Source of the DNA: Streptomyces coryli
Lineage (GTDB): Bacteria > Actinomycetota > Actinomycetes > Streptomycetales > Streptomycetaceae
Assembly (NCBI RefSeq): GCF_011044975.1
Contig: NZ_JAAKZV010000006.1
Span: forward strand, 36,546 to 100,545
Direction: 5' to 3'
Length of the DNA: 64,000 bases
Shown here: positions 3,821-34,269 of the stretch, in pieces
Layout: the number at the start of each line of letters is the position of its first letter
Position numbering within the stretch: the stretch's first letter is position 1
Notes under the pieces: generated by a model
Seen by the model: the letters and a program-made list of their open reading frames with translations, nothing else
Told to the model about the DNA's origin: nothing
Database searches by the model: none
Translations under genes and position numbers: made by a program

Positions 3821-4992
3821 ACACCATGGAGACGGCTAATAGCGCGCTGCGGATTGTTCGCGTCGCGAACTTCATAGCGCCCACTTCTGGCGGCCTGCGC
3901 ACCGCGCTGCGCGAGCTCGGCGCCGGCTACCGGGAGGCCGGGCACGAGCCGGTGCTGGTGCTGCCCGGCGAGTACGCGGGCGACGAGCAGACCCCGCAGG
4001 GGCGGGTGATCACCCTCCCGGGGCCGCTGCTGCCCGGCACCGGCGGCTACCGAGTGCTGGCCGACCGGCGCAAGGTGGGGCGGCTGCTGGAGGAGCTCGG
4101 CCCCGACCGGCTCGAGGTCTCCGACCGCACCACCCTGCGATGGACGGGGGAGTGGGCCCGGCGCGCGCGGGTGCCGTCGGTGATGGTGTCGCACGAGAGC
4201 GTCGACGGCGTGCTGCGGACCTGGGGCGTGCCGCGCGCCGCCGCCGAGCGGGCCGCCGACTCGCTCAACCGGCGCACCGCGCACGCCTTCCGCAAGGTGG
4301 TGTGCACGACGGACTGGGCGGCGCGGGAGTTCGAGCGGATCGGAGCGCGCAATGTCGTACGGGCACCGCTGGGCGTGGATCTGGCGCGGCGGCATCCGGC
4401 GCGGCGCAGCGGTGAGTTGCGGGCGCTGTATGCCGCCGAGGGCGAGCTGCTGCTGCTCATGTGCTCCCGGCTGTCGCCGGAGAAGCGCCCCGCGCGGGCG
4501 CTGGAGACGCTCGCCGAGCTGCGCCGCCGCGGGGTCGCCGCGCGGCTGCTGATCGCCGGCGACGGCCCGCTGCGCGACCGCCTGGAGCGGCGCGCGGTGG
4601 CCGAGGGACTACCGGTGCGGTTCCTCGGCCACCTGCGCGGCAGCGAGCTCGCCGTGCACCAGGCGAGCGCCGATGTGGTGCTCGCGCCCGGGCCGGTGGA
4701 GACCTTCGGCCTGGCCGCGCTGGAGGCGCTCGCGTCGGGCACCCCTGTGGTGGCGAGCGAGAGCTCGGCGCTGCCCGCGGTGGTCGGCGAGGGCGGCGAG
4801 GCGGTGGCGGACAGCGGAGCGGCGTTCGCGGACGGGGTGGAGCGGCTGCTCGCCCGGCCCGAGGCGGAGCGGCGGGGCACGGCCCGTAACCGGGCGGAGG
4901 GCTATGGGTGGCCGGCGGCGGTCGACGCCTTCCTGGCCGCGCACGGCGCGCGGCCGCGCACCCGGCCCGCGGTGCTCGAGGGTGCGGCGTGA
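3817..4992 (+). CDS. GT4-family glycosyltransferase, second of a pair
   Basis: This 391-residue GT-B enzyme begins at an ATG overlapping the upstream stop by 4 bp. The N-terminal half contains [20 protein letters not shown], the typical GT4 acceptor-side loop. The C-terminal half has [17 protein letters not shown] and [20 protein letters not shown], the nucleotide-sugar binding region with the E-x7-E motif. Translational coupling to the preceding glycosyltransferase suggests that the two act in sequence on one acceptor, perhaps a mannosylated lipid. The donor and acceptor cannot be read from sequence. Its stop also overlaps the next gene. Confidence 0.85.
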
Positions 4993-5837
4993 GTGCCGAG
5001 CTGCGGTTCGCCGTGCTCGGCGACTCGCTCTCCGAGGGCGTGGGCGATCCGGCGCCCGGCGGCGGCTGGCGCGGCTGGTGCGAGCTGCTCGCCGGGGCGC
5101 TGGCCGCGGACCGGCCGGTGCGGGTGATCAAAGTGGCCCGCAGCGGCGCGCTCAGTACGGACGTGGCGTACCGGCAGCTGCCGGCCGCGCTGGCCGAACG
5201 CCCGCAGCTGGCCTCGGTGATGGCCGGCGGCAACGACACGCTGCGGGCCGGCTTCGACATCCACCGCACCGTGGCCGCGCTCGACCACACCATGGGCGCC
5301 CTGACGGAGTCCGGCGCGCGGCTGCTGACCGCGTGCCTGCCCGACGCGGGCCGCGCGCTCGGCCTGCCGTGGCCGCTGGCGCGCCCGCTCGCCCGGCGCA
5401 TGGACGCGGTGAACACGGCGGTGCACGCCCTGTCCGAGCGCTACGACGCGCTGCATCTGCACCTCGCCGTGCATCCCTGCACGGCGGAGCGCGGCGCCCG
5501 GAGCGTGGACCGGCTGCATCCGAGCGAGCTCGGCCATCGGGTCCTGGCGCGTGCCTTCCATGCCGAGTTGGTGGGCGCCGGTCTTGCCGCCGGGGCGCCG
5601 CCGGGCGCGGATCCCGAGACGCCCGCGCCGTCCGTGCTGGACGGTGCGCGGTGGCTGGCCTTCGAGGGCACCCGCTGGGTGGCGCAGCGGTGTACGGATC
5701 TGCTGCCCGGGCTGCTCGGTCTCGCCGTCGCGGAGAGCAGGTACTGGCTGCTGCGACGCGAGCACGAGCTGGAGGAACGGGCCCGCGGGGCCACCCTGGC
5801 GGCGCTGTCGGCGCCCGCTGCCAGAATGGCGGCATGA
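4989..5837 (+). CDS. SGNH/GDSL-family hydrolase
   Basis: The 282-residue protein starts at a GTG overlapping the upstream TGA (GTGA). Block I is [11 protein letters not shown] with the nucleophilic Ser, block III is GGNDTL, and block V is [10 protein letters not shown] with the catalytic Asp and His, so the triad is intact. No signal peptide is seen, so action inside the cell is likely. Family members are esterases, lipases or acyltransferases. Sitting between two glycosyltransferases and an oxoprolinase-like gene in an overlapping operon, it may deacylate the glycosyltransferase product, but that is inference. About 90 residues follow the DxxH block and do not match the usual short SGNH end. 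Confidence 0.85.
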
Positions 5838-8800
5838 CGGAGCGCTGGGAGTTCTGGATCGACCGTGGCGGCACCTTCACCGACGTCGTGGGCAAGCGGC
5901 CTGACGGCCGCCTGGTCGCGCGGAAGCTGCTGTCGCACGACCCGGAGCGGTATCGCGACGCGGCCGTCGCGGGCATCCGCCTGACGCTGGGGCTCGGGCT
6001 CGAGGAGCCGGTGCCGGCGGACCGTATCTCCGTGGTCAAGATGGGCACGACCGTCGCCACGAACGCGCTGCTGGAGCGCAAGGGCGAGCCCACCGCGCTG
6101 GTGATCACCGAGGGCTTCCGCGACGCGCTGCGCATCGCGTACCAGAACCGGCCCCGGCTCTTCGACCGGCACATCGTGCTGCCCGAGGCGCTCTACGACC
6201 GCGTCATCGAGGTGCCCGAGCGGATCGGTGCGCACGGCGAGACGGTCCGGGACTTCGCGGCGGAGCCGGTGCGGGAGCAGCTGCAAGCCGCCTACAGGGA
6301 CGGCATCCGCAGCGCCGCGATCGTCTTTATGCACGGCTATCGCCATCCGGCGCACGAGCGCGCGGCCGCCGAGCTGGCCAGGGAGGCCGGCTTTACGCAG
6401 GTCAGCTGTTCGCATGAGGTCAGCCCGCTGATGAAGCTGGTGCCGCGCGGCGACACGACCGTCGTGGACGCCTATTTGTCGCCGATCCTGCACCGGTACG
6501 TGGACGAGGTCGCAAGTGAACTGCAGGGCATCCGGCTGATGTTCATGCAGTCCAGCGGCGGGCTGCGGGAGGCGGCGCACTTCCGGGGCAAGGACGCCGT
6601 GCTGTCCGGACCCGCGGGCGGCGTCGTCGGGATGGTGCGCGCGTCGGGAGAGGCCGGCCACGAGCGCGTCATCGGCTTCGACATGGGCGGTACGTCCACG
6701 GACGTGTCGCACTACGCGGGCGAGTACGAGCGGGACTTCGGCACCGAGGTCGCGGGCGTGCGGATGCGGGCGCCGATGATGTCCATCCACACGGTCGCCG
6801 CCGGCGGCGGCTCGGTGCTGCACTTCGACGGCCGCCGCTACCGGGTCGGCCCCGACTCGGCGGGGGCGGTGCCGGGCCCCGTCTGCTACCGCCGCGGGGG
6901 ACCGCTGACGGTCACGGACGCGAACGTGATGCTCGGCCGCGTACAACCCGCGCACTTTCCCTCGGTGTTCGGCCCCGGCGGCGACCAGCCGCTGGACGCG
7001 GCGGCGGTGCGGGAGACGTTCGCCGCGCTGGCGGACGAGGCGGCGGCCGCGGTCGGCGACCGGCGCACCCCCGAGGAGGTGGCGGCGGGCTTCACCGAGA
7101 TCGCGGTGCTCAACATGGCCAACGCGGTGAAGAAGATCTCGGTGCAGCGCGGCCATGACGTCACCCGGTATGCGCTGACCAGCTTCGGCGGGGCCGGCGG
7201 GCAGCATGCCTGCGCGGTCGCCGACGCGCTGGGGATCAACACGGTGATCGTGCCGCCTTTTGCGGGCGTGCTGTCCGCGTACGGGATCGGGGTGGCGGCG
7301 GCCACGGCGATCCGGGAGCGGTCGGTGGAGGTGGAGCTGGGCGCTGCCGCTATGGACCGGATCCGCGGGGTGGCGGAGGAGCTGGCCGGGATCACCCGCG
7401 AGGAGCTGCGCGCCGACGGGATTCCGGACGCGGCGGTGTCGACGGCGGCGCGGGTGCATCTGCGGTACGCCGGCACGGACTCGAGCATTCCGGTGCCGCT
7501 GGGGGAAGCGGCGGACATGGCGGCGGAGTTCGCGCGGGTGCACCGCGAGCGGTACGCCTTCACGATGGACAAGCCGCTGATCGCGGAGGCGGTGTCGGTG
7601 GAGGCGTCGTCGGCGGAGCCGGAGGCGGGCTTCGGGATCGACGCGCCGGAGCGCCGGGAGGGCGCGTTGCGGCCGGCGGACCGGGTGCGGATCTTCACCG
7701 AGGGGCGCTGGCAGGACGCCGATCTGTTTGAGCGTACGGACCTGCGCCCCGGCGACGCCGTGACCGGACCGGCGATCATCGCGGAGGCCGACGCCACGAC
7801 GGTCGTCGACCCGGGCTGGGCGGCGGCGGCCGATGAGGGCGGCCATCTGCTGCTCGAGCGCGTGACGCCGCGGCCGGAGCGGGTGGCGGTGGGCACCGAC
7901 GTCGACCCGGTGATGCTGGAGGTCTTCAACAGCCTCTTCATGGCCATCGCCGAACAGATGGGCCTGCGGCTGGAGAACACCGCGCACTCGGTCAACATCA
8001 AGGAGCGGCTGGACTTCAGCTGCGCGCTGTTCGACGCGGACGGGAATCTGATCGCGAACGCGCCGCACATCCCGGTGCACCTCGGGTCGATGGGGGAGTC
8101 CATCAAGGAGGTGCTGCGGCGCAATGAGGGCACGATGCGGCCCGGGGATGTGTACGCGATCAACGACCCGTATCACGGGGGCACGCATCTGCCGGATGTG
8201 ACGGTGGTGACCCCCGTATTCGACGAATCCGGCGACGAGTTGCTCTTCCTGGTCGCCTCCCGCGGCCACCACGCCGAGATCGGCGGCATCACGCCGGGGT
8301 CGATGCCCGCCTTCAGCCGGACGATCCACGAGGAGGGCATCCTCTTCGACAACTGGCTGCTGGTGCGCGACGGGCAGTTGCGGGAGGCGGAGACCCGCGA
8401 GCTGCTCGGCTCCGGGCCGTATCCCTCGCGCGCGCCTGACGCCAACATCGCGGACCTGCGGGCGCAGATCGCGGCGAACGAGAAGGGCATCCGGGAACTG
8501 CGCAAGATGATCACGCAGTTCGGCCTGGACGTGGTGCAGGCGTACATGGGGCACGTGCAGGACAACGCGGAGGAGTCCGTGCGCCGCATCGTCGCCGGGC
8601 TCGAGGACGGCTCGTACCGCTACGAGACGGACGGCGGGGCGGTCATCGAGGTCGCGCTGCATGTCGACAAGGCGACCCGCAGCGCGGTGCTGGACTTCGC
8701 GGGCACGTCGGCGGAGCAGCCGGGGAACGTCAACGCGCCGAGCTCGGTGGTGATGGCGGCGGTGCTGTACGTCTTCCGCACCCTGATCGCCGACGACATC

Positions 8801-9430
8801 CCGCTCAACAGCGGCTGCCTGAAGCCCCTCGAAGTGCGCATCCCGGAGGGCTCGATGCTGGCGCCTGCCTACCCGGCGGCGACGGTGGCGGGAAACGTGG
8901 AGACCTCGCAGGCGGTGACCGGCGCGCTGTACGCGGCGCTCGGCGTGCAGGCCGAGGGGTCCGGCACGATGAACAACCTCACCTTCGGCAACGACCGCGC
9001 CCAGTACTACGAGACGGTGGCCAGCGGCTCGGGAGCCGGCGACGGCTTCGCGGGCGTGGACGCGGTGCAGACCCATATGACGAACTCGCGGCTGACCGAC
9101 CCCGAGGTCCTGGAGTGGCGCTATCCGGTGCGGGTGGAGGAGTTCGCGGTCCGCGACGGCAGCGGCGGCGCCGGCCGCTGGCGCGGCGGCTGCGGCGTGG
9201 TGCGCCGGCTGCGCTTCCTGGAGCCGATGACGGTGACGCTGCTGTCCGGCCACCGGCGGGTGCCCCCGTACGGCATGGCGGGCGGCGCGCCCGGCGCCCT
9301 GGGCCGTAACGCGATCGAGCGGGCGGACGGCTCGGTCAGCGCGCTGGAGGGGAGCGACACGCAGGAGGCCGGGGCCGGAGACGTGCTGGTGATCGAGACG
9401 CCGGGCGGCGGAGGCTACGGCACGCCGTAG
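5834..9430 (+). CDS. Fused hydantoinase A/B, 5-oxoprolinase-like ATP-dependent amidohydrolase
   Basis: The 1198-residue protein carries both subunits of the hydantoinase/oxoprolinase family in one chain. The HyuA-like half (about residues 1-670) starts with [12 protein letters not shown], the ASKHA-type phosphate loop, and contains [12 protein letters not shown]. The HyuB-like half starts near residue 690 ([20 protein letters not shown]) and ends in the glycine-rich TPGGGGYG motif. Length and order match eukaryotic-type 5-oxoprolinase (ATP-dependent 5-oxoproline to glutamate). Substrate specificity cannot be decided, since N-methylhydantoinases and acetophenone carboxylases share the fold. 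The ATG at 5834 overlaps the SGNH stop by 4 bp, making this the last gene of the operon. Confidence 0.88.
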
Positions 9431-9460
9431 CACCGTGCGCGCGCTGGGTCATTTCGGCCA

Positions 9461-9483
9461 TTGTCGGTGGCACCGCCTAATCT
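9461..9483 (+). promoter_or_regulatory. Perfect PafBC (RecA-NDp) DNA-damage promoter of the SMC-like operon
   Basis: TTGTCGGTG (9461-9469), 8 bp, then TAATCT (9478-9483) matches the published actinobacterial LexA-independent damage promoter TTGTCRGTG-N8-TANNNT at every defined position. The GTG start codon at 9491 lies 8 nt after the -10, where transcription should begin, so a leaderless mRNA is expected. The match is direct; PafBC control is inferred from the motif. Confidence 0.8.
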
Positions 9484-9490
9484 GTCCGTC

Positions 9491-11023
9491 GTGACCGCAC
9501 CAGCCATCGGCGCAGCCGACCCGCAGCCGCCGGCCTCCGTCGCGCCGCCCTCCCCGGCCAGGGGACCGGCCGCCGACGAGGGCCTGGCGCGGCGGCTGCG
9601 TGCGCTCGCCTGCACCGCCCCGCTGCACGACCTCGACACCCGCAAGGCCAATCTCGCGGGGGAGTACGGCATCTATGCCATGGCCGAGGTGGCGCTCTCC
9701 GCCATCGACCTGGTCACGCTGCAGATGGACTTCGACACCGGCGCCGATCACGAGCAGGTCATCAGCAAGTTGCTGCCGCGCGCCGCCGCGCAGGCCCCGC
9801 ACCGCCCGGCCGCCGAGCATGAGCGGGTGGCGCGCTGGGTGCTGGACAACCTGATCAATGTCGGCAGCGTCGACCGCGGCTTCCGCGCCGTTTACGGCAC
9901 TTTCGGCGTCGACGGCGAGTATGTCCGCCGGGACTACGACTTCAAGCTCGTCGAGGAGGTCCCGGGACCCGGCGGCGCCGTCTATCTGCGTACCACCGAC
10001 GAGGCCGTCAATGTCCTGGTCGGCGCCCTCGACACCGACGTCACCAGCGCGCAGATCGCCGCCGAGGTGAAGCTCGAGGTGCTGATCCAGCGCGGCCGCC
10101 TCGCCGACGCCCAGCTCGCCGCCGAGCAGGCGCGCTACCGGACGGTGCAGTACGCGGAGACGCTCCGCAAGGCGCTCGAGGCCACCCGCAGGAATGTCCG
10201 CGCGGTCGACTGGCTGCGCACCGTCCCCGACATGATCAACGAGGCCCTCGAGCACGTCGCGGACCGCTATCGCCACGAGAACGCGATCCTCACCAACATC
10301 CGCCGCTCCCGCGACGAGGCCGAGGACCCGGAGCACAAGCGCCGCGCCGCCGAGCTCGTCGACATCGTGAAGGACTGCATCCGCCGCCACACCCAGCTGC
10401 AGTCGCGGCTGCTGGACGCGGGCCCGCTGTTCCGCGCCGAGCAGGACCGGCAGGCCTTCGCGCCGCCCCGGGCGCACTCGGGCGTCGATCTCTACGGGCA
10501 GCTGCTGGCGCCCGTGCTGCCGCTGCCGGTCGGCGATGCCACGCGGGTGACCGACGCCTGGTTCGCGCACGGCACCGGGCTGCGCACCCCGCACACGCCG
10601 CGGATGGGCGACCTGGTCGAGCTGCTGTTCACGCCGCCCGTGGAGCGCGATCACCTGGGCTCGGAGATGCCGGAGCCGGATCTCATCGAAACCCCGGACG
10701 ACAGCCGCTTCAGCGAGGAGCAGCTCGCCTCGGCGATGGAGCTGCTCGATCTGCCCGTCGACGCCCCGCGGCGGCTGTCCGGGCTGCTCGCCGAGGCGCG
10801 CCGCCGCGACCCCTCGCTGCCGTATCTGATCGCGCTGCTGTCCGTGCACGCCGCCTCGCCGCCCGTCGGCTCGGCGTACCGGCAGGGCGAGCAGCGGCTG
10901 CTCTTCGCCGTCGACGACGGCACGGAGCTGGACGACCCCGAGTTCGGTGGCGCCGACCTGATCGTCGGCACCGCAGGGCTCGACGCGGCCGGGATGGCCG
11001 CGGACCGCGCGGAGGCGAGCTGA
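9491..11023 (+). CDS. MukF/JetA-like subunit of an SMC-type complex
   Basis: This 510-residue, largely helical protein is the first of three genes whose order and sizes (510, 301, 1534) match the kleisin/KITE/SMC sets MukF-MukE-MukB and JetA-JetB-JetC. The N-terminal part (VARWVLDNLINVGSVDRGF, YDFKLVEE) looks like a winged-helix region. Residues around 185-310 form long helices (AEVKLEVLIQRGRLADAQLA, EHKRRAAELVDIVKDCIRRH), as in the middle region of MukF. The last 80 residues may be a second small domain. The GTG at 9491 was chosen over the in-frame TTG at 9461 because that TTG lies inside the promoter motif and transcription should begin at the GTG. Subunit identity rests on context more than on residues, and a structure comparison would be decisive. 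Confidence 0.6.
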   Translation: MTAPAIGAADPQPPASVAPPSPARGPAADEGLARRLRALACTAPLHDLDTRKANLAGEYGIYAMAEVALSAIDLVTLQMDFDTGADHEQVISKLLPRAAAQAPHRPAAEHERVARWVLDNLINVGSVDRGFRAVYGTFGVDGEYVRRDYDFKLVEEVPGPGGAVYLRTTDEAVNVLVGALDTDVTSAQIAAEVKLEVLIQRGRLADAQLAAEQARYRTVQYAETLRKALEATRRNVRAVDWLRTVPDMINEALEHVADRYRHENAILTNIRRSRDEAEDPEHKRRAAELVDIVKDCIRRHTQLQSRLLDAGPLFRAEQDRQAFAPPRAHSGVDLYGQLLAPVLPLPVGDATRVTDAWFAHGTGLRTPHTPRMGDLVELLFTPPVERDHLGSEMPEPDLIETPDDSRFSEEQLASAMELLDLPVDAPRRLSGLLAEARRRDPSLPYLIALLSVHAASPPVGSAYRQGEQRLLFAVDDGTELDDPEFGGADLIVGTAGLDAAGMAADRAEAS

Positions 11024-11024
11024 G

Positions 11025-11930
11025 ATGTCCGACATGACCACCACCGAGCAGCAGTCCGCGGACGGATCAGGGACGGGTGCGCACCCGATCACCCCGGCCG
11101 ACACCGCCGACGCGGCCCGGCTCGTCGCCTTCGGCCTGCAGCCGAAGCTGCTCCCGGCCCGCGACCTGGAGTACGCCGAGCTGCTGCGCCGCTATCGCGA
11201 CGAGCCCGCTTTCGCGCGCCTCGCCGACGCCGTCGCCAGCGGCCTCGGCCTGATCGTGCTGGAGGTCTCCACCCGCGCCGGAATGGCCGTGACCGCCGCC
11301 GAGGACTCCGTCTTCGCGGTACGGATGGGCGACTACGCCCGCCGCGCCAGCACCGACGCCTCCGACCGCTTTCTGCACGGGCTCGCCCATCTCGCCGTCG
11401 CCGCGATGGCGTTCCCGCGCCCCGAGGACCTCGCCGACGACGGCTACATCGGCCGGATCACCGTCAACGGCGTGGACGCCTTCGTCCGCCAGGCCTGCCG
11501 CCGGCTGGAGGAGCGCGCCGACGCCGCGGGCGAGAACACCGACCCGGCCTCCGACGCGCCCGGGCTGGAAGCGGCCTGGCGGGTGTACGCGCGGCGCAGC
11601 GCCACCGGCGCCACCAAGGACGCCCGCCGGCTGGCCGGCTCCACCACCGGCATCATCGGCAAGGCCGTCGCCTTCCTCACCGACTCCGGCTTCCTCCAGC
11701 GCACCTCGGACGACGCCGGCGGTACGTATCGCACCACCGCTCGTTATCAGCTGCAGGTCCGCGACATGGCGGGCAGCGCCGCCATGTCCGAGCTGCTCGA
11801 GCTCGGTGTCGTGCCGGTGGGGGACGGCAGCGCCTCCCTGGTGCCCGCCGAAGAGCTCCTCGAGGAGGAGCTCGTTCCGGGGGCCGGGCTGCCCTTCTTC
11901 CCCGAGCAGCCCGGCCACCCGGACGCCTGA
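11025..11930 (+). CDS. MukE/JetB-like subunit of an SMC-type complex
   Basis: The ATG lies 1 bp after the previous stop, so translation is coupled. The 301-residue acidic protein has a central region (DRFLHGLAHLAVAAMAFPRP through DGYIGRITVNGVDAFVRQAC) and a later helix-turn-helix-like segment (LAGSTTGIIGKAVAFLTDSG followed by GTYRTTARYQLQVRDM). This is consistent with the tandem winged-helix KITE proteins that bridge kleisin and SMC heads. About 60 acidic residues form the tail (EELLEEELVPG). Position between the kleisin-like and SMC-like genes is the main support. It could alternatively be a MarR-like DNA-binding protein. Confidence 0.55.
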   Translation: MSDMTTTEQQSADGSGTGAHPITPADTADAARLVAFGLQPKLLPARDLEYAELLRRYRDEPAFARLADAVASGLGLIVLEVSTRAGMAVTAAEDSVFAVRMGDYARRASTDASDRFLHGLAHLAVAAMAFPRPEDLADDGYIGRITVNGVDAFVRQACRRLEERADAAGENTDPASDAPGLEAAWRVYARRSATGATKDARRLAGSTTGIIGKAVAFLTDSGFLQRTSDDAGGTYRTTARYQLQVRDMAGSAAMSELLELGVVPVGDGSASLVPAEELLEEELVPGAGLPFFPEQPGHPDA

Positions 11931-11967
11931 GTCCCCCGCCAGCCACCCGACGACCTGAAGAGAGTCC

Positions 11968-14900
11968 ATGTACGAGCTGTCCCGGATCCGCCTCTACTCC
12001 ATCGGGCCCGCCGGCGCGCGCTACGCGGACACCGTGCTGGACCTGCGCGGCGTCGGCGACCCGGTGGCGCAGCCGGCGCCCGCCCAGGGGGACTTCTTCG
12101 AGGACGAGCCGAGCGGGCCGCCGCGCCGGCCCGCGCCCGCGGGCGTGCTCTTCCTGGAGAACGGCGGCGGCAAGTCCGTACTGCTCAAGCTGATCTTCTC
12201 CGTCATGCTGCCGGGACACCGCAACACCCTGGGCGGCGCCAGCTCCGGCGTGCTGCGGAAGTTCCTGCTCGCCGAGGACTGCGGGCATGTGGCCCTGGAG
12301 TGGCAGCACACCCTCACCGGCGAGACGGTCGTCGTCGGCAAGGTGAGCGAGTGGCGCGGGCGGCAGGTCTCCAGCGACCCGCGGAAGTTCGCCGAGTCCT
12401 GGTACTCCTTCCGGCCTGGCCCCGGGCTGAGCCTCGACTCGCTGCCGGTCGCCGAGCGCGGCCGCCGCCGCACGATGAAGGGCTTCAAGGACGCGCTCAC
12501 CGAGGCCGGAAAGGCGTATCCGCACCTGGAGATCGGCTGGGAGGACATCCACGAGCGCTGGAACGAGCACCTCGGCGAGCTCGGCCTCGACCCCGAACTC
12601 TTCCGCTACCAGCGCGAGATGAACGCCGACGAGGGCGAGGCCGCGGGCCTCTTCGCCGTCAAGAACGACTCCGACTTCACCGACCTGCTGCTCCGCGCCG
12701 TCACCGACACCCGCGACACGGACGGCCTCGCCGACCTGGTGCACGGCTTCGCGCACAAGCTCGGCCGCCGCGCCGAACTCACCGCGGAGCGCGACTTCAC
12801 GGCAGGCTCCGTTGACCTGCTGCAGGCGATCGTGGAGGCCGCCGAGCGGCGCGACCGGGCCCGGGACATCCACGGCGGCGCCGAGCGCCGCACCCGCTCT
12901 CTGGTGCAGCGACTCGCCGCCCGAGCCGGGCAGGAGAGCGAGCGCGGAGCCGCGGTCGCCGGGCAGCTCGCCGACGCCGCGCACACGGTCGGCGATGCCG
13001 AGTCCCGCCGCGCCCGCAGCGAGGCGATCGCCGCCGAACTGGCCTACCGGCACGCCTCCCTCGCCCTCACCGCCGCCGAGAAGTCCGCCGCCCGCCTGAA
13101 GCGCGAGCTGGCCGACGCCCGTACCCAGCAGTCCGCCTGGCAGGCGGCGGAGGCGGTGCTCCGGCACCGTACGGCGGCGGACCGCGCGGCCAGGGTGTCG
13201 GCGGCGATCCACGAGGCGGAGCGGGACGCGGCCCCCGCGCTCGCCGCGCGGGCCAAGGCGGCCGGCGCCCTGATCCGCGCCCTGGACGCGGCCGCCGACG
13301 ACGGCGAACGGCGCGCCAACGAGGCGGACGAGCGCGCCGCCGCACTCCAGGAGGAGGGCGAGGCCGCCCACCGCGACGCCACCGCCGCCGCCACGGCCGC
13401 GCAGCGCTCGCGCAGCGAGGCCGACCACCTGGGCCAGCGCCTGGCGGAGGTCCAGGAGGAGACCGCCGAGGCGGTACGGGCCGGCTGGCTCGACGGCACC
13501 GCCCCCGACACGGACCCGGCCAGGGCCGCCCTGGCCGCGAGCGACGCGGAAAAGGCAGCGGTGGCGTCATGGGACGCGGCCCGCGAGCTGGCCACCCGCA
13601 CCGGCGAACGGGCCCAGGAAACCGCGGCGGAACTGGCCCGCGCGGAGCTGGCCGCGGCCCGAGCGGCGGACGCGGCGGAGGCCGCCGCGTCGGCGTACGG
13701 CGCGGAGCACGCGGAGGCGACGGCGCTGGCGGGGGAGGAGCGGCTGGCGGAGCTGCTGGGGTTGCCGGGCGGCGGAACCAACACTCAAGCCCGGCCGGCG
13801 CTTGAGGCCGAGGCGCGGAGCGCTGATCGGGGTCCGGTGCGGAGCCCCGGGAGCGACACCGGCCCTCTCACCGCCGAAGAGCTCGACCGCAACGCCGAAG
13901 CCCTCCGCGAACTCCTCGACGAATGCGTCGGCACCGCGGAGCGCCAGCTCTTCGACCTCCGCACCGCCGCCGCCGACGACGCCCGCATCCTCGGCGCCCT
14001 CGGCGACGGCGGCCTGCTCCCGCCGGGCCCGGACGTATTGCACACCGTCGAATTCCTCGGCGAGCACGGCGTCCCCGCCCTCCCCGGCTGGCGCTATCTC
14101 GCGCAGGCTGTCGACCCCGCCGACCACGCCCGCGTCCTCGCGGCCCGCCCCGAGCTCGTCGACGGCGTCGTCATCACCGACCCGGACACCCACGAGCGCG
14201 CCCGCGAGATCCTCGACGAGGCCGCGCTGCTGCCCCGTTCGGCCGTCGCTGTCGGCACCGCCGCCGCGCTGCTCGCCCCCACCGGCAAGGACGAGCGCGA
14301 CGGCGTCTTCCTGGTCCCGCCCAACCCGGCGATGCACGACGAACACGCCGCCGACGACGAACGCCGCCGGCTCCGCGACGACGCCATGGTCCGCGACGAG
14401 GACATCCGCGTCCTCGCGGCCCGCGTCGCCGAGGACCGCGCGCTCGCCGCCCGCCTCGCCTCCTGGCGTACGGGCTGCCCGCCGGGCCGCCTCGCCGAGC
14501 TGGCCGAGGCCGCGGAGACGGCCCGTACCACCGCCGCCGACACCGCCAAGCAGCTCGCCGAGGCGCACACCGCCCGCGACGAGGCGGCGGAGGCGGCCAC
14601 CGAGGCCGCGGCCGTACGGGAAGAGCGGCAGGAGGCCGCGCAGCGCGCCCGCCGCTCCGCCGACGCCCTCGCGGGCCTCGCGCACCGGCTGCGGGAGCGC
14701 TCCGCCTGGGCCGCCCGGGTACGTGAACTCACCGACGAGGCCGCCGAGTCCGAGACCAAGGCGGCCGCCTGCCTGGAGCGGGCCCGCGCCGCCGACGAGG
14801 AGCGCCGCACCGCGCAGCGCTCCGCCGACGACACCCGCCGCACCGCCCACGCCCTGCGCGCCGAGCGCGCCGAGATCGCCGGCAGCCCCGACGACATCGA

Positions 14901-16572
14901 CGACGAGCCGCCCACCGCCTCCCTCCCGGCACTCCGCGAGGCGTACCGGACCGCCTCCCAGGTCTACGAGAAGGTCGGCGTCGGCGCCGACCTGCGCGCC
15001 GAGCAGGCCCGCGCCGAAGGCGACGCCACCGCCGCCCTCACCGAGCTCGGCCGGCTCAGCAACAAGGTGCGCACCCGCGCCGAACAGCTCCTCGAAGGCA
15101 CCGAGGGCGCCGACGCCCCCTCCCGCCAGGCCGCCGCCGCCCGCGCCGAACAGCTCGTGCAGACCCTGGAGTCGCGCGCCTCGGCCGCCAGCGAGCAGCT
15201 CGGCCGGCTGCGCGGCGAGACCGAGCGGCTCGCCCCGGCCGACGGCGAGGCGCACGCCGAGCTCCCCGACGAGCTCGTCCCCGCCGATGCCGAGGAGGCC
15301 CAGTCCCGGCTCCGCACGGCGACCGCCGAAGTCGCCACGCACCACGCCGCCGTGGAGGAGGCCCGCGCGGCGCACGAGGAGCTCCTGTACACCCATCGCG
15401 CCGCGGACGAGGCGGCTCGCGGCTTCGAGGAGACGGCGGCCCAGCTGCGCGATCTGCTGCGCGGGCAGCCCGACGAGGAAAGCGACGCCGACGACGCGGA
15501 GCCGTACGCCGCGGCCCTCGAGCAGGCCCGCCAGGCCGCCGCCGAGGCCCGCCGCTCGCTGCGCGGCTGCGCCGCCGACCTGCAGGCGGCCGAGTCCGCG
15601 CTCCGCGACACCAGCGACATCCTCGTACGGCACGCCAACTCCACCCGCTACGAGGCCGTCCGCACCCCCGCCCGGCAGCAGATCCGCGAGCTGCCCGCGG
15701 CCGTGCTGCCCGACCACGCCGACAAGTGGCTGGCCGCCTTCGCGCCCCGGCTGCGCGTCCTCACCGACGAACTGGACCAGCTGGAGCGCAACCGCGACAG
15801 CATCGTCGACCGGCTGCGCGGCCTGGTCGAGTCCTCCCTCGCCACGCTCCGCTCGGCCCAGCGGCTGTCGCGGCTGCCGGAAGGGCTCGGCGAATGGTCG
15901 GGCCAGGAGTTCCTGCGCATCCGCTTCGACGACCCCGACCAGGCCGAACTCACCGAGCGCCTCGGCGAGGTCATCGACGAGGCCACTCGCGCCGCCGTCC
16001 GCAAGGGCGGCGACATGCGGCGCGACGGCATGTCGCTGCTGCTGCGCGGCGTCGACGCGGCGCTGAAGCCGCGCGGCGTCTCCGTCGAGATCCTGAAGCC
16101 GGACGCGGTGCTGCGCGCCGAGCGGGTCCCGGTCGGGCAGATGGGCGACGTCTTCTCCGGCGGCCAGCTGCTCACCGCCGCCATCGCCCTGTACTGCACG
16201 ATGGCCGCCCTCCGCAGCAACGACCGCGGCCGCACCACCGAATCGGAGCACCGCCACGCGGGGACGCTCTTCCTCGACAACCCGATCGGCCGCGCCAACG
16301 CCACCTACCTGCTGGAGCTGCAGCGCGCCGTCGCCGACGCCCTGGGCGTCCAGCTGCTGTACACGACGGGCCTGTTCGACACCACGGCGCTGGCGGAGTT
16401 CCCCCTCGTCATCCGCCTCCGCAACGATGCGGACCTACGCGCCGGCCTGAAGTACATCAGCGTCGAGGAGCACCTCCGCCCCGGCCTGCCCGAGCAGTCC
16501 AACGGCGAGACGGTGCACGGCGAGGTCACCGCCACCCGGATCTTCCGTAAGACGGCGGCTGTCGCGGAATGA
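11968..16572 (+). CDS. MukB/JetC-like SMC-type coiled-coil ATPase
   Basis: The 1534-residue protein has SMC architecture. Walker A ENGGGKS is at residues 64-70. Long Ala/Glu/Arg coiled-coil arms run over about 270-620 and 800-1300. A globular hinge-like segment lies near 640-800 (DVLHTVEFLGEHGVPALPGW). The C-terminal head has a signature-like FSGGQ near 1396-1400 and a Walker B-like TLFLDNP at 1433-1439. The residue after the Walker B Asp is Asn, not the usual catalytic Glu. Such ATPases bind and extrude or compact DNA with a kleisin and KITE partner. It is the third gene of the operon, 37 bp after the second, with GAAGAGAG ahead of its ATG. A Streptomyces palindromic repeat lies in frame inside the gene near the hinge. 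No JetD nuclease follows. Confidence 0.75.
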   Translation: MYELSRIRLYSIGPAGARYADTVLDLRGVGDPVAQPAPAQGDFFEDEPSGPPRRPAPAGVLFLENGGGKSVLLKLIFSVMLPGHRNTLGGASSGVLRKFLLAEDCGHVALEWQHTLTGETVVVGKVSEWRGRQVSSDPRKFAESWYSFRPGPGLSLDSLPVAERGRRRTMKGFKDALTEAGKAYPHLEIGWEDIHERWNEHLGELGLDPELFRYQREMNADEGEAAGLFAVKNDSDFTDLLLRAVTDTRDTDGLADLVHGFAHKLGRRAELTAERDFTAGSVDLLQAIVEAAERRDRARDIHGGAERRTRSLVQRLAARAGQESERGAAVAGQLADAAHTVGDAESRRARSEAIAAELAYRHASLALTAAEKSAARLKRELADARTQQSAWQAAEAVLRHRTAADRAARVSAAIHEAERDAAPALAARAKAAGALIRALDAAADDGERRANEADERAAALQEEGEAAHRDATAAATAAQRSRSEADHLGQRLAEVQEETAEAVRAGWLDGTAPDTDPARAALAASDAEKAAVASWDAARELATRTGERAQETAAELARAELAAARAADAAEAAASAYGAEHAEATALAGEERLAELLGLPGGGTNTQARPALEAEARSADRGPVRSPGSDTGPLTAEELDRNAEALRELLDECVGTAERQLFDLRTAAADDARILGALGDGGLLPPGPDVLHTVEFLGEHGVPALPGWRYLAQAVDPADHARVLAARPELVDGVVITDPDTHERAREILDEAALLPRSAVAVGTAAALLAPTGKDERDGVFLVPPNPAMHDEHAADDERRRLRDDAMVRDEDIRVLAARVAEDRALAARLASWRTGCPPGRLAELAEAAETARTTAADTAKQLAEAHTARDEAAEAATEAAAVREERQEAAQRARRSADALAGLAHRLRERSAWAARVRELTDEAAESETKAAACLERARAADEERRTAQRSADDTRRTAHALRAERAEIAGSPDDIDDEPPTASLPALREAYRTASQVYEKVGVGADLRAEQARAEGDATAALTELGRLSNKVRTRAEQLLEGTEGADAPSRQAAAARAEQLVQTLESRASAASEQLGRLRGETERLAPADGEAHAELPDELVPADAEEAQSRLRTATAEVATHHAAVEEARAAHEELLYTHRAADEAARGFEETAAQLRDLLRGQPDEESDADDAEPYAAALEQARQAAAEARRSLRGCAADLQAAESALRDTSDILVRHANSTRYEAVRTPARQQIRELPAAVLPDHADKWLAAFAPRLRVLTDELDQLERNRDSIVDRLRGLVESSLATLRSAQRLSRLPEGLGEWSGQEFLRIRFDDPDQAELTERLGEVIDEATRAAVRKGGDMRRDGMSLLLRGVDAALKPRGVSVEILKPDAVLRAERVPVGQMGDVFSGGQLLTAAIALYCTMAALRSNDRGRTTESEHRHAGTLFLDNPIGRANATYLLELQRAVADALGVQLLYTTGLFDTTALAEFPLVIRLRNDADLRAGLKYISVEEHLRPGLPEQSNGETVHGEVTATRIFRKTAAVAE
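13784..13852 (+). repeat. Streptomyces REP-like palindromic element inside the SMC gene
   Basis: CTCAAGC (13784-13790) and GCTTGAG (13800-13806) flank CCGGCCGGC. A GC-rich tail with GGTGCGGAGCCCCGGG follows. From recall, this palindrome plus tail is a common dispersed element between Streptomyces genes. Here it lies within codons about 606-628 and keeps the frame, adding a Pro/Arg-rich linker. Confidence 0.6.
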
Positions 16573-16675
16573 CCGCCCGGCGGTTGGTATATGCCAAAAG
16601 GCCCGAAGTTCCCCGGCACACCTGACCCGCCGGTTACTTTCGGCCCGGCAGTTCTGACCAGAAACGGGGGCGCCG

Positions 16676-17746
16676 GTGTCGGAACAGCGGCAGGGAAGCG
16701 GCCCGGGCTTCGGGCGCCGGGTGCTGGACGTCCTCTTCAGCGGACTCCCCGGCGAGCCCGGCACACCGAGGCGCGTGCGCTTCGTCGCCTGGGCGGTCCT
16801 CGTGACCGTGGGCATCACTGCCGGGCTCTGCGTCGGCTACTTCTGGATCGGGGCCGAGCAGCGGGCGGAACTCGCCCCGCCGCACAAGGACGCGGAGGCG
16901 TCCGCCGAGGACGACGCGCAGGACCGGCTCGACCGCAAGCAGGCGCCGTTCCAGGTACGGGGCGTGCGCTACGACTGGTCGTACCAGGACAAGGAGGTGT
17001 GGGCCTGGGCGCTCGACCGGAAGTTCACGGCCGCCGAGGCCGAGCAGCTCGAACGGCTCGGTGAGCACACCTTCCGGCGGCCCAGCGGCGGCGCGGACCC
17101 CGAGAAGGCCCTCAGGGACTGGCTCAGGTCCAAGGGCGCCCGGCCCATCCTGACCGGCGACCAGTGCGACGGAGTACGCGGCTGCTACCACCCCGCCCAG
17201 GGAATGGCGGCGGTGCAGGTCACGCTGAAGGGCACCCGGGACAAGCCCGTGACCATCACGGATTTCGAGGCGCGGCTGGACCGGAAGTCCTGCCGCCCGT
17301 CCGCGGCCGTGACCATCATCGACCGGGCGACGGCCGGCAGCCAGAGCGTGAAGGGCCTCACCTTCAACCTCGAGGAGCAGCCGGCGCCCGCGTGGACGAA
17401 GGCCACGCCGGACGCGGAGGCGGCGAAGTACACCGACGCCCAGTACGAATCGCTGTCCGTCAACGAACCCGACTCGCGGCTGAAGTTCGAGGCGGTCTGG
17501 AACGGCGGCTCCCGGTGGACCGGCGGCTCCCGCGATCAGGTCTGCGACTGGGTGATCGATGCGACGTACGAGGCCTCGGACAAGCAGGACACGCTGACGA
17601 TCGACGATCACGGAAAGCCCTTCCGCGTCGAAAGCGCCGCGGACTACGAAGAGCGGTGGACGCTGGGCATCGGCGAGACCTTCAGGTGCACGAAGGCCAA
17701 GCCCACCACGGCCACCCCGGACCAGGCGTGCGACCCGCGCTCGTAA
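16676..17746 (+). CDS. Membrane-anchored protein of unknown function
   Basis: The 356-residue protein starts at a GTG preceded by ACGGGGG. Residues 1-35 are basic and cytoplasmic. A single hydrophobic segment (FVAWAVLVTVGITAGLCVGY) spans about 35-56. An extracytoplasmic acidic domain follows, with Cys at CDGVRGC, KSCRPS, VCDWVI, FRCTKA and ACDPRS, suggesting disulfides. I do not recognise a family. It follows the SMC-like operon by 103 bp but has its own ribosome-binding site, and nothing in it resembles a Toprim nuclease. It could be co-transcribed, since no clear terminator lies in the gap, but no functional link to the SMC genes can be claimed. Confidence 0.7.
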   Translation: MSEQRQGSGPGFGRRVLDVLFSGLPGEPGTPRRVRFVAWAVLVTVGITAGLCVGYFWIGAEQRAELAPPHKDAEASAEDDAQDRLDRKQAPFQVRGVRYDWSYQDKEVWAWALDRKFTAAEAEQLERLGEHTFRRPSGGADPEKALRDWLRSKGARPILTGDQCDGVRGCYHPAQGMAAVQVTLKGTRDKPVTITDFEARLDRKSCRPSAAVTIIDRATAGSQSVKGLTFNLEEQPAPAWTKATPDAEAAKYTDAQYESLSVNEPDSRLKFEAVWNGGSRWTGGSRDQVCDWVIDATYEASDKQDTLTIDDHGKPFRVESAADYEERWTLGIGETFRCTKAKPTTATPDQACDPRS

Positions 17747-33333: not shown

Positions 33334-33356
33334 CTGTCAGTGGCGGCGACTACTCT
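33334..33356 (+). promoter_or_regulatory. PafBC-type DNA-damage promoter of an unknown gene
   Basis: CTGTCAGTG (33334-33342), 8 bp, TACTCT (33351-33356) matches TTGTCRGTG-N8-TANNNT except for the first T. The predicted start near 33363 leaves about 30 nt of leader, containing GAGGGGGA, before the GTG at 33394. Confidence 0.7.
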
Positions 33357-33393
33357 CGGTGAGCATCGGGTTGGAGCTCATCGAGGGGGAGTC

Positions 33394-34269
33394 GTGGAGC
33401 GCAAGGGCGGACCAAAGGGCGTATCACCGCGGAAGCTGCTGCGCCGGGAGACGGCGAGCACGGTGGGGCTGCTGGCGGATGTCGACGACTACAAGTCGAT
33501 AAGGAGATATGCCTCCTTCAGGCACGCCGGCGACCACCTCGCGTATCTCCGCCATGTCGAGGGGCTGTTACGGGCGCTGGCCGCGCGCGGTGCGCCGGTG
33601 ACGGTCGCGCTCTTCGAGCCGGACGACTTCGCCGCCTACTGCGCCCGGCGCGGCATGGACCCGGACTCGGCGTCGTCGAGGGCGCGTTATACGTCCCAGG
33701 CGGCGGCGGCCCGCACCTCCGTGCCGTATGCGGGCCAGCCGATGGACCGCCTCCTGGACCAGCTCCTGCAGGAGGCGGTGCGCCGCCGCAGCGGCGAACA
33801 CGCGGCGACGCTGCTGGCCACGGCGGGGGAGTGCACCGACTGCGGCACCCACGTCGGGCGCGACGGCTTCGAGCGCGCCTCGGCGGCGCTGGCGGCGCTG
33901 TGCGAGCGGCTGGACGCCGGGATCCACCACGTGGTGGTGAGCGTCGAGGACGACCCAGAGGCCCCGCTGGTGGCGGCGGCGCATGTCTCCGCCGGCCGGA
34001 TCACGGAGGAGGAGGCGCTGCGCCTGTGCACGGTCCTGGCGGCGGGCTTTGTCACCGCGAGCCCGGGCGGCCTGGTCCTACGGAGCCAGGCCACTCCCGA
34101 CACGGTCCGCGCCTGGCGCGTGCACGACTCCTGGCTCGAGCCGATGACGGCGGCCGAGGTCTTCAACGCGTACTGCACGGACGCGACTACGGGCGACCCG
34201 ATCCCACCGGAACCGGGCGTGGACTACGCGGAGGGCTGGGCCCTCACGCCTCCGGAGGAGGAGGCATGA
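33394..34269 (+). CDS. Unknown protein, probably DNA-damage inducible
   Basis: The 291-residue protein starts at the GTG at 33394, preceded by GAGGGGGA. I do not recognise a family. The N-terminal 60 residues are basic (VERKGGPKGVSPRKLLRRET). A conserved-looking middle contains LRHVEGLLRALAARGAPVTV and FEPDDFAAYCARRGMDPDSA. A CTDCG motif with one further Cys downstream could bind metal. The rest is alpha/beta, without membrane segments. A PafBC-type promoter lies just upstream, so a role in the response to DNA damage is the best inference. It converges on ptsI. Confidence 0.7.
   Translation: MERKGGPKGVSPRKLLRRETASTVGLLADVDDYKSIRRYASFRHAGDHLAYLRHVEGLLRALAARGAPVTVALFEPDDFAAYCARRGMDPDSASSRARYTSQAAAARTSVPYAGQPMDRLLDQLLQEAVRRRSGEHAATLLATAGECTDCGTHVGRDGFERASAALAALCERLDAGIHHVVVSVEDDPEAPLVAAAHVSAGRITEEEALRLCTVLAAGFVTASPGGLVLRSQATPDTVRAWRVHDSWLEPMTAAEVFNAYCTDATTGDPIPPEPGVDYAEGWALTPPEEEA

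Follow-up and report, generated by a model that had tools for sequence, protein, structure and literature searches.

Wadjet systems have been studied as plasmid defence, and both their regulation and their kinship to the chromosomal structural maintenance of chromosomes (SMC) complexes are open questions. In this study we focus on an SMC-like jetABC operon of Streptomyces coryli, which together with its promoter occupies positions 9461 to 16572 of a 64,000-nucleotide stretch of contig NZ_JAAKZV010000006.1, hereafter called the window. The operon stands behind an exact copy of a RecA-NDp/PafBC-type DNA-damage promoter, and no gene for the Wadjet nuclease JetD was found in the window. An original prediction, made from the letters of the sequence, had placed a MukF/MukE/MukB-like operon under such a promoter and had suggested a role in repair or in restructuring of the damaged chromosome.

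Among the SMC-like complexes of actinomycetes, MksBEFG of Corynebacterium and EptABCD of Mycobacterium smegmatis are described as plasmid restriction systems (PMC10123090). According to one review, MksBEF of Pseudomonas is likely a JetABCD system that lost JetD and acts on the chromosome, and the contact motif between JetB and JetD, IFDR, is described there for type I systems (PMC10586767). PafBC works on the housekeeping polymerase through a -26 element, and in mycobacteria its activator is single-stranded DNA (ssDNA; PMC11804915). Streptomyces encode PafBC homologues (PMC9380542), and the RecA-NDp promoter is known upstream of S. coelicolor recA and of SCO6735, the latter being UV-inducible (PMC5087735). 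PafBC and Wadjet are named together in one paper, in an account of BrxR, another WYL regulator, located close to defence systems (PMC9122601). Within the portions of the open-access literature searched, no paper joins PafBC/RecA-NDp regulation with Wadjet, Mks or condensin genes, and none reports a type III clade without JetD that Streptomyces have in common.

The operon of the window resembles each of these systems in part. With type III Wadjet (JetA3-JetB3-JetC3-JetD3) it shares the gene order A-B-C and the matches of JetA and JetC to the PADLOC models, and its accessory Streptomyces relatives are JetABCD operons (parts of loci L151, L156 and L159 tested as type III); it differs in that no JetD was found, in being near-universal in Streptomyces and in belonging to a separate JetD-less clade. 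Like MksBEF of Pseudomonas aeruginosa and MukBEF, it would form a three-subunit SMC complex without nuclease, whereas here the complex is type III-like Wadjet, is found in actinomycetes, has a damage-type promoter and may act on the chromosome. The likeness to MksBEFG and EptABCD is that the promoter motif also precedes certain JetA1 (type I) operons of the class; the Corynebacterium system, however, keeps its nuclease MksG, and the window JetA has no JetA1 match. Finally, motif, spacing and start distance are as at recA and other Streptomyces repair genes of the RecA-NDp/PafBC regulon, although the portions of the literature consulted name no SMC-like or Wadjet operon as a member, and GAC replaces GTG in most of the jet promoters.

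The jet operon and its promoter

The promoter element TTGTCGGTGGCACCGCCTAATCT lies at 9461-9483 on the + strand and has 0 mismatches to TTGTCRGTG-N8-TANNNT, which we take to be the RecA-NDp/PafBC consensus (its letters presumably those of Gamulin 2004). It consists of a -26-type box, TTGTCGGTG, an 8-nt spacer and the -10 hexamer TAATCT. Even with two mismatches allowed it has no second match in the window, where 0.01 are expected from shuffles. The original prediction was thus right that an exact PafBC-type promoter precedes the operon, and right to begin its interval at the motif; the coding region starts at 9491. There the GTG codon of jetA begins 7 nt after TAATCT, and since it follows the -10 so closely, the leaderless start that had also been proposed is plausible. 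At 9451-9456 (+ strand), ATTTCG occupies the position of the conserved GTTTSG element of other Streptomyces (-40 to -35 from the start codon), with a different first base. For the SOS box, which we take to be CGAAC-N4-GTTCG, no site at up to one mismatch was found in the jetA promoter region; the whole window holds 4 such matches against a chance expectation of 3.1, the nearest inside jetA at 10933.

The three genes lie on one strand (+), are separated by 1 nt and 37 nt, and encode proteins of 510, 301 and 1534 amino acids. The first, jetA (9491-11023), has a GTG start, probably leaderless, and encodes a kleisin/MukF-like subunit which matches the PADLOC JetA3 model PDLC00567 with an E-value of 2.8e-189; JetA3 models are the only ones that it matches, the JetA1 model giving no match. 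The second, jetB (11025-11930), would encode a KITE/MukE-like subunit, judging by its position. Its 301-residue product has no PADLOC match itself, and the JetB3 model is weakly matched by 7 of 29 aligned relatives (E up to 0.1; best E 0.0011). The third, jetC (11968-16572), encodes an SMC-like ATPase of the DUF3584/JetC3 type (PADLOC JetC3, E 0). All its ATPase motifs are intact, much as in JetD-bearing relatives: a Walker A motif, ENGGGKS, at 12157-12177 (+), closely similar in those relatives; a signature motif, FSGGQ, at 16153-16167 (+); and a Walker B motif, FLDNP, at 16270-16284 (+), whose DNP is likewise present in them. Pfam and NCBIfam gave no match for any of the three proteins, and a profile search of the PDB gave none for JetA and only chance or coiled-coil matches for JetB and JetC. 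The family models support a three-subunit JetABC (MukF/E/B-like) operon, as had been predicted, through JetA and JetC, the identification of JetB being weak.

Conservation of the promoter and the putative damage regulon

Out of 594 candidate stretches, the search for JetA yielded at least 481 relatives. The top 80 of these 481 (L001-L080) are all Streptomyces, one of them named Kitasatospora, and all 80 loci start with GTGAC (79 aligned; one with too short an upstream sequence). A motif NTGTCRG-N10-TANNNT stands near the start in 77 of the 80. The motif counts are confined to L001-L080, because two additional samples (L111-L140 and L240-L269) contain two JetABCD loci and may repeat species. 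Its box reads TTGTCRGTG in 15 loci, NTGTCRGTG in 3, TTGTCRGAC in 31, NTGTCRGAC in 21 and otherwise in 7, so that GAC forms account for 52/80 and the exact GTG consensus, at 15/80, is a minority. Despite this, the box is nearly fixed in Streptomyces jet promoters.

In a 71-row alignment the fully conserved columns are partly built in, because the rows had been picked by the motif; hence the alignment was repeated blind to the motif, with the start codon as the sole anchor for 79 Streptomyces loci. Between -48 and -1 the mean identity amounts to 0.82, compared with 0.47 between -80 and -52. Identities of 0.91 to 0.99 are reached in the TGTC, G, TA and CT columns, values lowered by the loci with a spacer one base shorter, and GTTT at -40 to -37 has column identities of 0.89 to 1.0. 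In 71 of the 79 loci the box stands at exactly -30 relative to the start codon.

Genome-wide, the strict motif occurs at 242 sites in 8 Streptomyces genomes versus 0 for the reversed motif. One genome was followed in more detail: it holds 33 strict and 5 variant sites, the first genes of which were scanned with Pfam at 26 of the 33 and 4 of the 5. Repair, recombination, replication or DNA helicase/nuclease domains were found in 17 of the 26 first genes behind strict sites, the other 9 having none. Genes behind strict sites encode RecA, RuvC, UvrA, UvrB, a RadA-like ATPase, O6-methylguanine methyltransferase, uracil glycosylase, MgsA and DnaX, together with two UvrD-like and two RecD2-like helicases. 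Moreover, for 20 of the 33 strict sites the start codon assigned by script follows after 5-10 nt, which is the geometry of jetA and agrees with the leaderless arrangement proposed for it. These counts, from 8 genomes other than S. venezuelae, argue for the use of a RecA-NDp/PafBC-type motif in Streptomyces, and by its motif jetABC falls within this putative, sequence-defined DNA-damage regulon.

The GAC form may be a real sister of the RecA-NDp box in Streptomyces: the 8 genomes hold 52 sites with a non-T base at that place (control 23), of which 24 read AC. TTGTCRGAC-N8-TANNNT is also found repeatedly, its spacer almost unchanged, in several genomes (L181, L182, L184, L185; G001-G008). Of the four variant sites that were scanned, two are followed by genes for an NAD-dependent ligase (202 nt away) and an SNF2 helicase, and two by genes for an aldo/keto reductase and an acetyltransferase. 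In another genome the GTG form stands before a gene related to that for SNF2 (65% over 243 residues).

Two further sites of this kind were seen. A strict RecA-NDp site stands 5 nt before a DUF1883-TIR gene (L209:779-1594, genome G001), that is, a defence-like gene with a damage-type promoter. In the window itself, a second motif, CTGTCAGTG-N8-TACTCT, lies at 33335-33356, near the start of a 309-residue open reading frame (33340-34269) which has no Pfam match and may also belong to the damage regulon.

A near-universal operon and its nuclease-free clade

A JetA relative is present in 386 of 392 Streptomyces genomes, in all but four of them (G380, G415, G605 and G655) at E below 1e-200, whereas a JetD3 protein query found a JetD relative in 36 of the 392: 33 convincing (E below 1e-7; one is a short fragment) and 3 weak. 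This contrast makes jetABC part of a core gene set, unlike patchy defence systems, and the operon is conserved across Streptomyces. In a class-wide sample the JetA3 model was matched in 43 of 296 genomes. Relatives of JetC in a plasmid collection were restricted to 9 records, none covering 80% of the query.

The absence of JetD, both here and in relatives with visible downstream sequence, had been missed. For this genome the statement covers the 64-kb window, in which the open reading frames after jetC have no JetD match and a comparison of nine JetDs with the whole window gave chance matches (E 0.48 or worse). No JetD match was found in L001-L080; in 66 of these loci the sequence reaches 1.5 kb or more beyond jetC. 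The JetD_C family PF09983 had no match in 8/8 Streptomyces genomes, for which it is a weak probe of type III: it detects JetD in C. glutamicum, recognises type III faintly (E about 1e-6 for G120, G190 and G251) and misses the JetD of G250. For this reason, our JetD counts rest on the JetD3 protein query. Among 42 further JetA-bearing genomes PF09983 gave 10 matches. Four of these (G120, G190, G251 and G259) show JetD directly behind a divergent JetC, in four others (G064, G080, G119 and G206) the surroundings of a strong JetD_C gene hold no type III Jet relatives, and the rest are weak. The JetDs that were followed up sit behind divergent accessory jet operons.

In a JetA tree of 49 rows, the 26 JetD-less rows, from Streptomyces and other lineages, are separated from all others by a single branch with 96/92 support. 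Where sequence after jetC is seen, 17 rows lack JetD and 23 have it, and one change is needed; nine of the 26 rows labelled as lacking JetD have too little sequence after jetC, and the change count is still one without them. The root was placed for drawing only, and the nuclease-free clade would have arisen by one loss, rather than gain, of JetD.

Some JetD genes were noted in other settings. The strong JetD_C genes of L174-L177 (G119, G064, G206 and G080) occur in genomes that also have a JetD-less jetABC. L160 (genome G190) holds jetD and only the last part of a jetC; neither jetA nor jetB was found, and the locus looks like a JetABCD operon in decay. Two copies of JetD lie near both ends of a chromosome-size contig in G444 (C1:66711-67604 and 8038785-8039678) and likewise in G387 (C1:15693-16694 and 9222599-9223441), as if in terminal inverted repeats. 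Wadjet is reported to be enriched in Actinobacteria and, in Streptomyces, to lie towards the chromosome ends (PMC10482375).

Discussion

The best reading, which we hold at about even confidence, is that jetABC encodes a damage-inducible, nuclease-free descendant of Wadjet III that acts on the chromosome. Kleisin-like JetA, KITE-like JetB and the ATPase JetC would form an SMC-like motor of type III Wadjet descent from which the nuclease JetD has been lost. Accumulation of ssDNA after damage would, through the RecA-NDp/PafBC pathway, switch on jetABC along with recA, uvrA, uvrB, ruvC and others. JetABC would then most likely extrude or hold loops on the damaged chromosome, as an MksBEF-like condensin, and this looping could aid recombination repair or the sorting of broken nucleoids. 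Since ssDNA activates PafBC, damage, stalled forks or incoming DNA could each turn the operon on. Judging from known systems, a JetABC complex that lacks JetD would be expected to load and to extrude, not to cut (PMC10586767), and because the operon is near-universal, the cell's own chromosome is the likeliest substrate. The sequence shows the genes, the motif and their conservation, regulon membership by motif, the single JetD-less clade and the intact ATPase motifs; we infer the loss of JetD as opposed to its never having been gained, the dependence on PafBC, the induction, the loop extrusion, the chromosomal target and the benefit.

Several observations weigh against this proposal. The first concerns the promoter itself: most Streptomyces jet promoters carry the GAC variant, which PafBC would have to use as well, and 2 of the 4 scanned GAC-variant sites precede the acetyltransferase and aldo/keto reductase genes. 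In S. venezuelae an initial search suggested that the M. smegmatis PafBC motif is not conserved, the question being left open (PMC9380542). In M. smegmatis, a triple SMC deletion strain still condensed its DNA under antibiotic stress (PMC6135046). The exact consensus is the minority state in Streptomyces, and no box within one mismatch was found in any of 15 JetD-less operons of other actinomycete lineages (L170 has two mismatches and L169 three), while the same 15 genomes have the motif elsewhere, with 125 matches versus 14 in the control. A TANNNT hexamer just before a possible start, with no box, is present in 10 of these 15 operons.

Nuclease-bearing JetABCD operons also carry the damage-type promoter, which is new and contrary to the expectation that it would mark nuclease-free operons only. 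The set compared comprised 23 loci with sequence upstream of jetA, L157, L160 and L228 being dropped for having none that was usable; the JetD of L156 lies on another contig (L157) of the same genome. Among the 21 Streptomyces loci the motif is exact in 7 (two of them, L151 and L220, nearly identical), has one mismatch in 5 and two in 1, and is absent within two mismatches in 8, as it is in both L153 and L159, from other actinomycetes. Random stretches gave 2, 3 and 11 of 2000 at zero, one and two mismatches, the control stretches being 330 bases taken from loci with real sites and the JetABCD scan covering about 460 bases. The jetC frame is short in L220 (1007 residues) and L225 (1068 residues), so these two operons may be broken. 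Elsewhere in the class, NTGTCRGTG-N8-TANNNT stands 6 to 68 nt before jetA in 4 of 19 JetD_C loci (19 of 20, L278 being cut and dropped). These are the only such coding-strand sites in the stretches, and all four, the only loci of this set that were typed, are JetA1 (type I) operons. Mapped onto the JetA tree, presence or absence of the motif takes a minimum of 5 changes, and from this scatter it follows that the coupling of the promoter to Jet arose or was lost repeatedly, with and without the nuclease. Because nuclease-bearing operons of several clades share it, the promoter alone is no proof of a repair role: of the original argument from damage promoter to repair, the promoter stands and the step to repair is weakened. 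As a separate observation, the JetABCD loci L234-L237 have the box TTGTCAGTG (TTGTCATTG in L235) at the right spacing from a hexamer TNCACT with an ATG close behind, which suggests a variant -10.

The main alternative is that PafBC reads rolling-circle, incoming or phage ssDNA, with JetABCD then cutting and the JetD-less form restraining circular DNA by extrusion or compaction. We regard such plasmid or phage control as rather unlikely for the window operon. It would agree with the promoter's presence before nuclease-bearing operons (the 7/21 exact cases in Streptomyces and the 4/19 elsewhere), with the repeated gain or loss of the motif, with ssDNA as the ligand of PafBC (PMC11804915) and with the TIR-domain gene behind a strict site (L209). 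However, the set of which the window operon is part is near-universal and nuclease-free, whereas defence genes are patchy; ten JetABCD loci (the 8/21 of Streptomyces with L153 and L159) have no motif within two mismatches, and in the system tested in B. subtilis plasmid suppression needs all four subunits (PMC10586767). Near-universality would suit a constitutive chromosome organiser, a second condensin with steady housekeeping expression and damage control of minor weight, to which the 10/15 JetD-less operons with TANNNT and no box, and the description of MksB as a mycobacterial condensin (in a paper title cited in PMC13121528), could also be assigned. This we consider improbable, as the element conserved in Streptomyces is a -26-type box, which lies nearer to the -10 than an ordinary -35 could.

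A full Wadjet system that obtains its nuclease in trans, from a gene elsewhere, is very improbable. Some strains do hold a JetABCD operon besides jetABC, and the JetD-less G064, G080, G119 and G206 have their strong JetD_C gene with no type III Jet relatives nearby, but a JetD3 relative occurs in at most 36/392 Streptomyces genomes, and PF09983, with its weakness for type III, in none of the 8; an unrelated nuclease acting in trans is conceivable. We give hardly any credence to a chance motif or a decayed operon: the exact consensus in only 15/80 relatives would be expected from it, whereas the columns conserved without reference to the motif, the 0.01 matches expected and the long open frames with intact motifs speak against it.

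The scatter of the motif also leads us to a broader and tentative idea, which we rate somewhat below even chance: ssDNA sensing by PafBC may be a recurrent on-switch for type I and type III Jet, serving plasmid cutters as well as a domesticated chromosome-folding clade in Streptomyces. If this is true, repair and plasmid immunity share one signal and one motor. A Wadjet-like motor without nuclease, near-universal in a genus and sharing its promoter with nuclease-bearing kin, would link SMC-based immunity to an ssDNA-sensing damage response, and domestication by nuclease loss becomes directly testable in Streptomyces. The genome-wide counts are also strong motif evidence for a RecA-NDp/PafBC-type regulon in this genus, a point left open in 2022 (PMC9380542).

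Neighbouring genes

An open reading frame at 16676, after jetC, was considered as a fourth gene of the operon and rejected, having no Pfam, NCBIfam or PADLOC match and no relative in L001-L080. Neither a terminator nor a sigma-70 promoter pattern was found in a scan of 16400-16800. About 1 kb further on, 44 of 66 loci have a gene related to one NIT-domain histidine kinase. On the upstream side, a 1585-residue fused hydantoinase/oxoprolinase A+B protein is encoded at 4673-9430 of the window, ending 30 bases before the promoter, and a homologue is present in 12 of the 80 relatives, within the stretch fetched for each.

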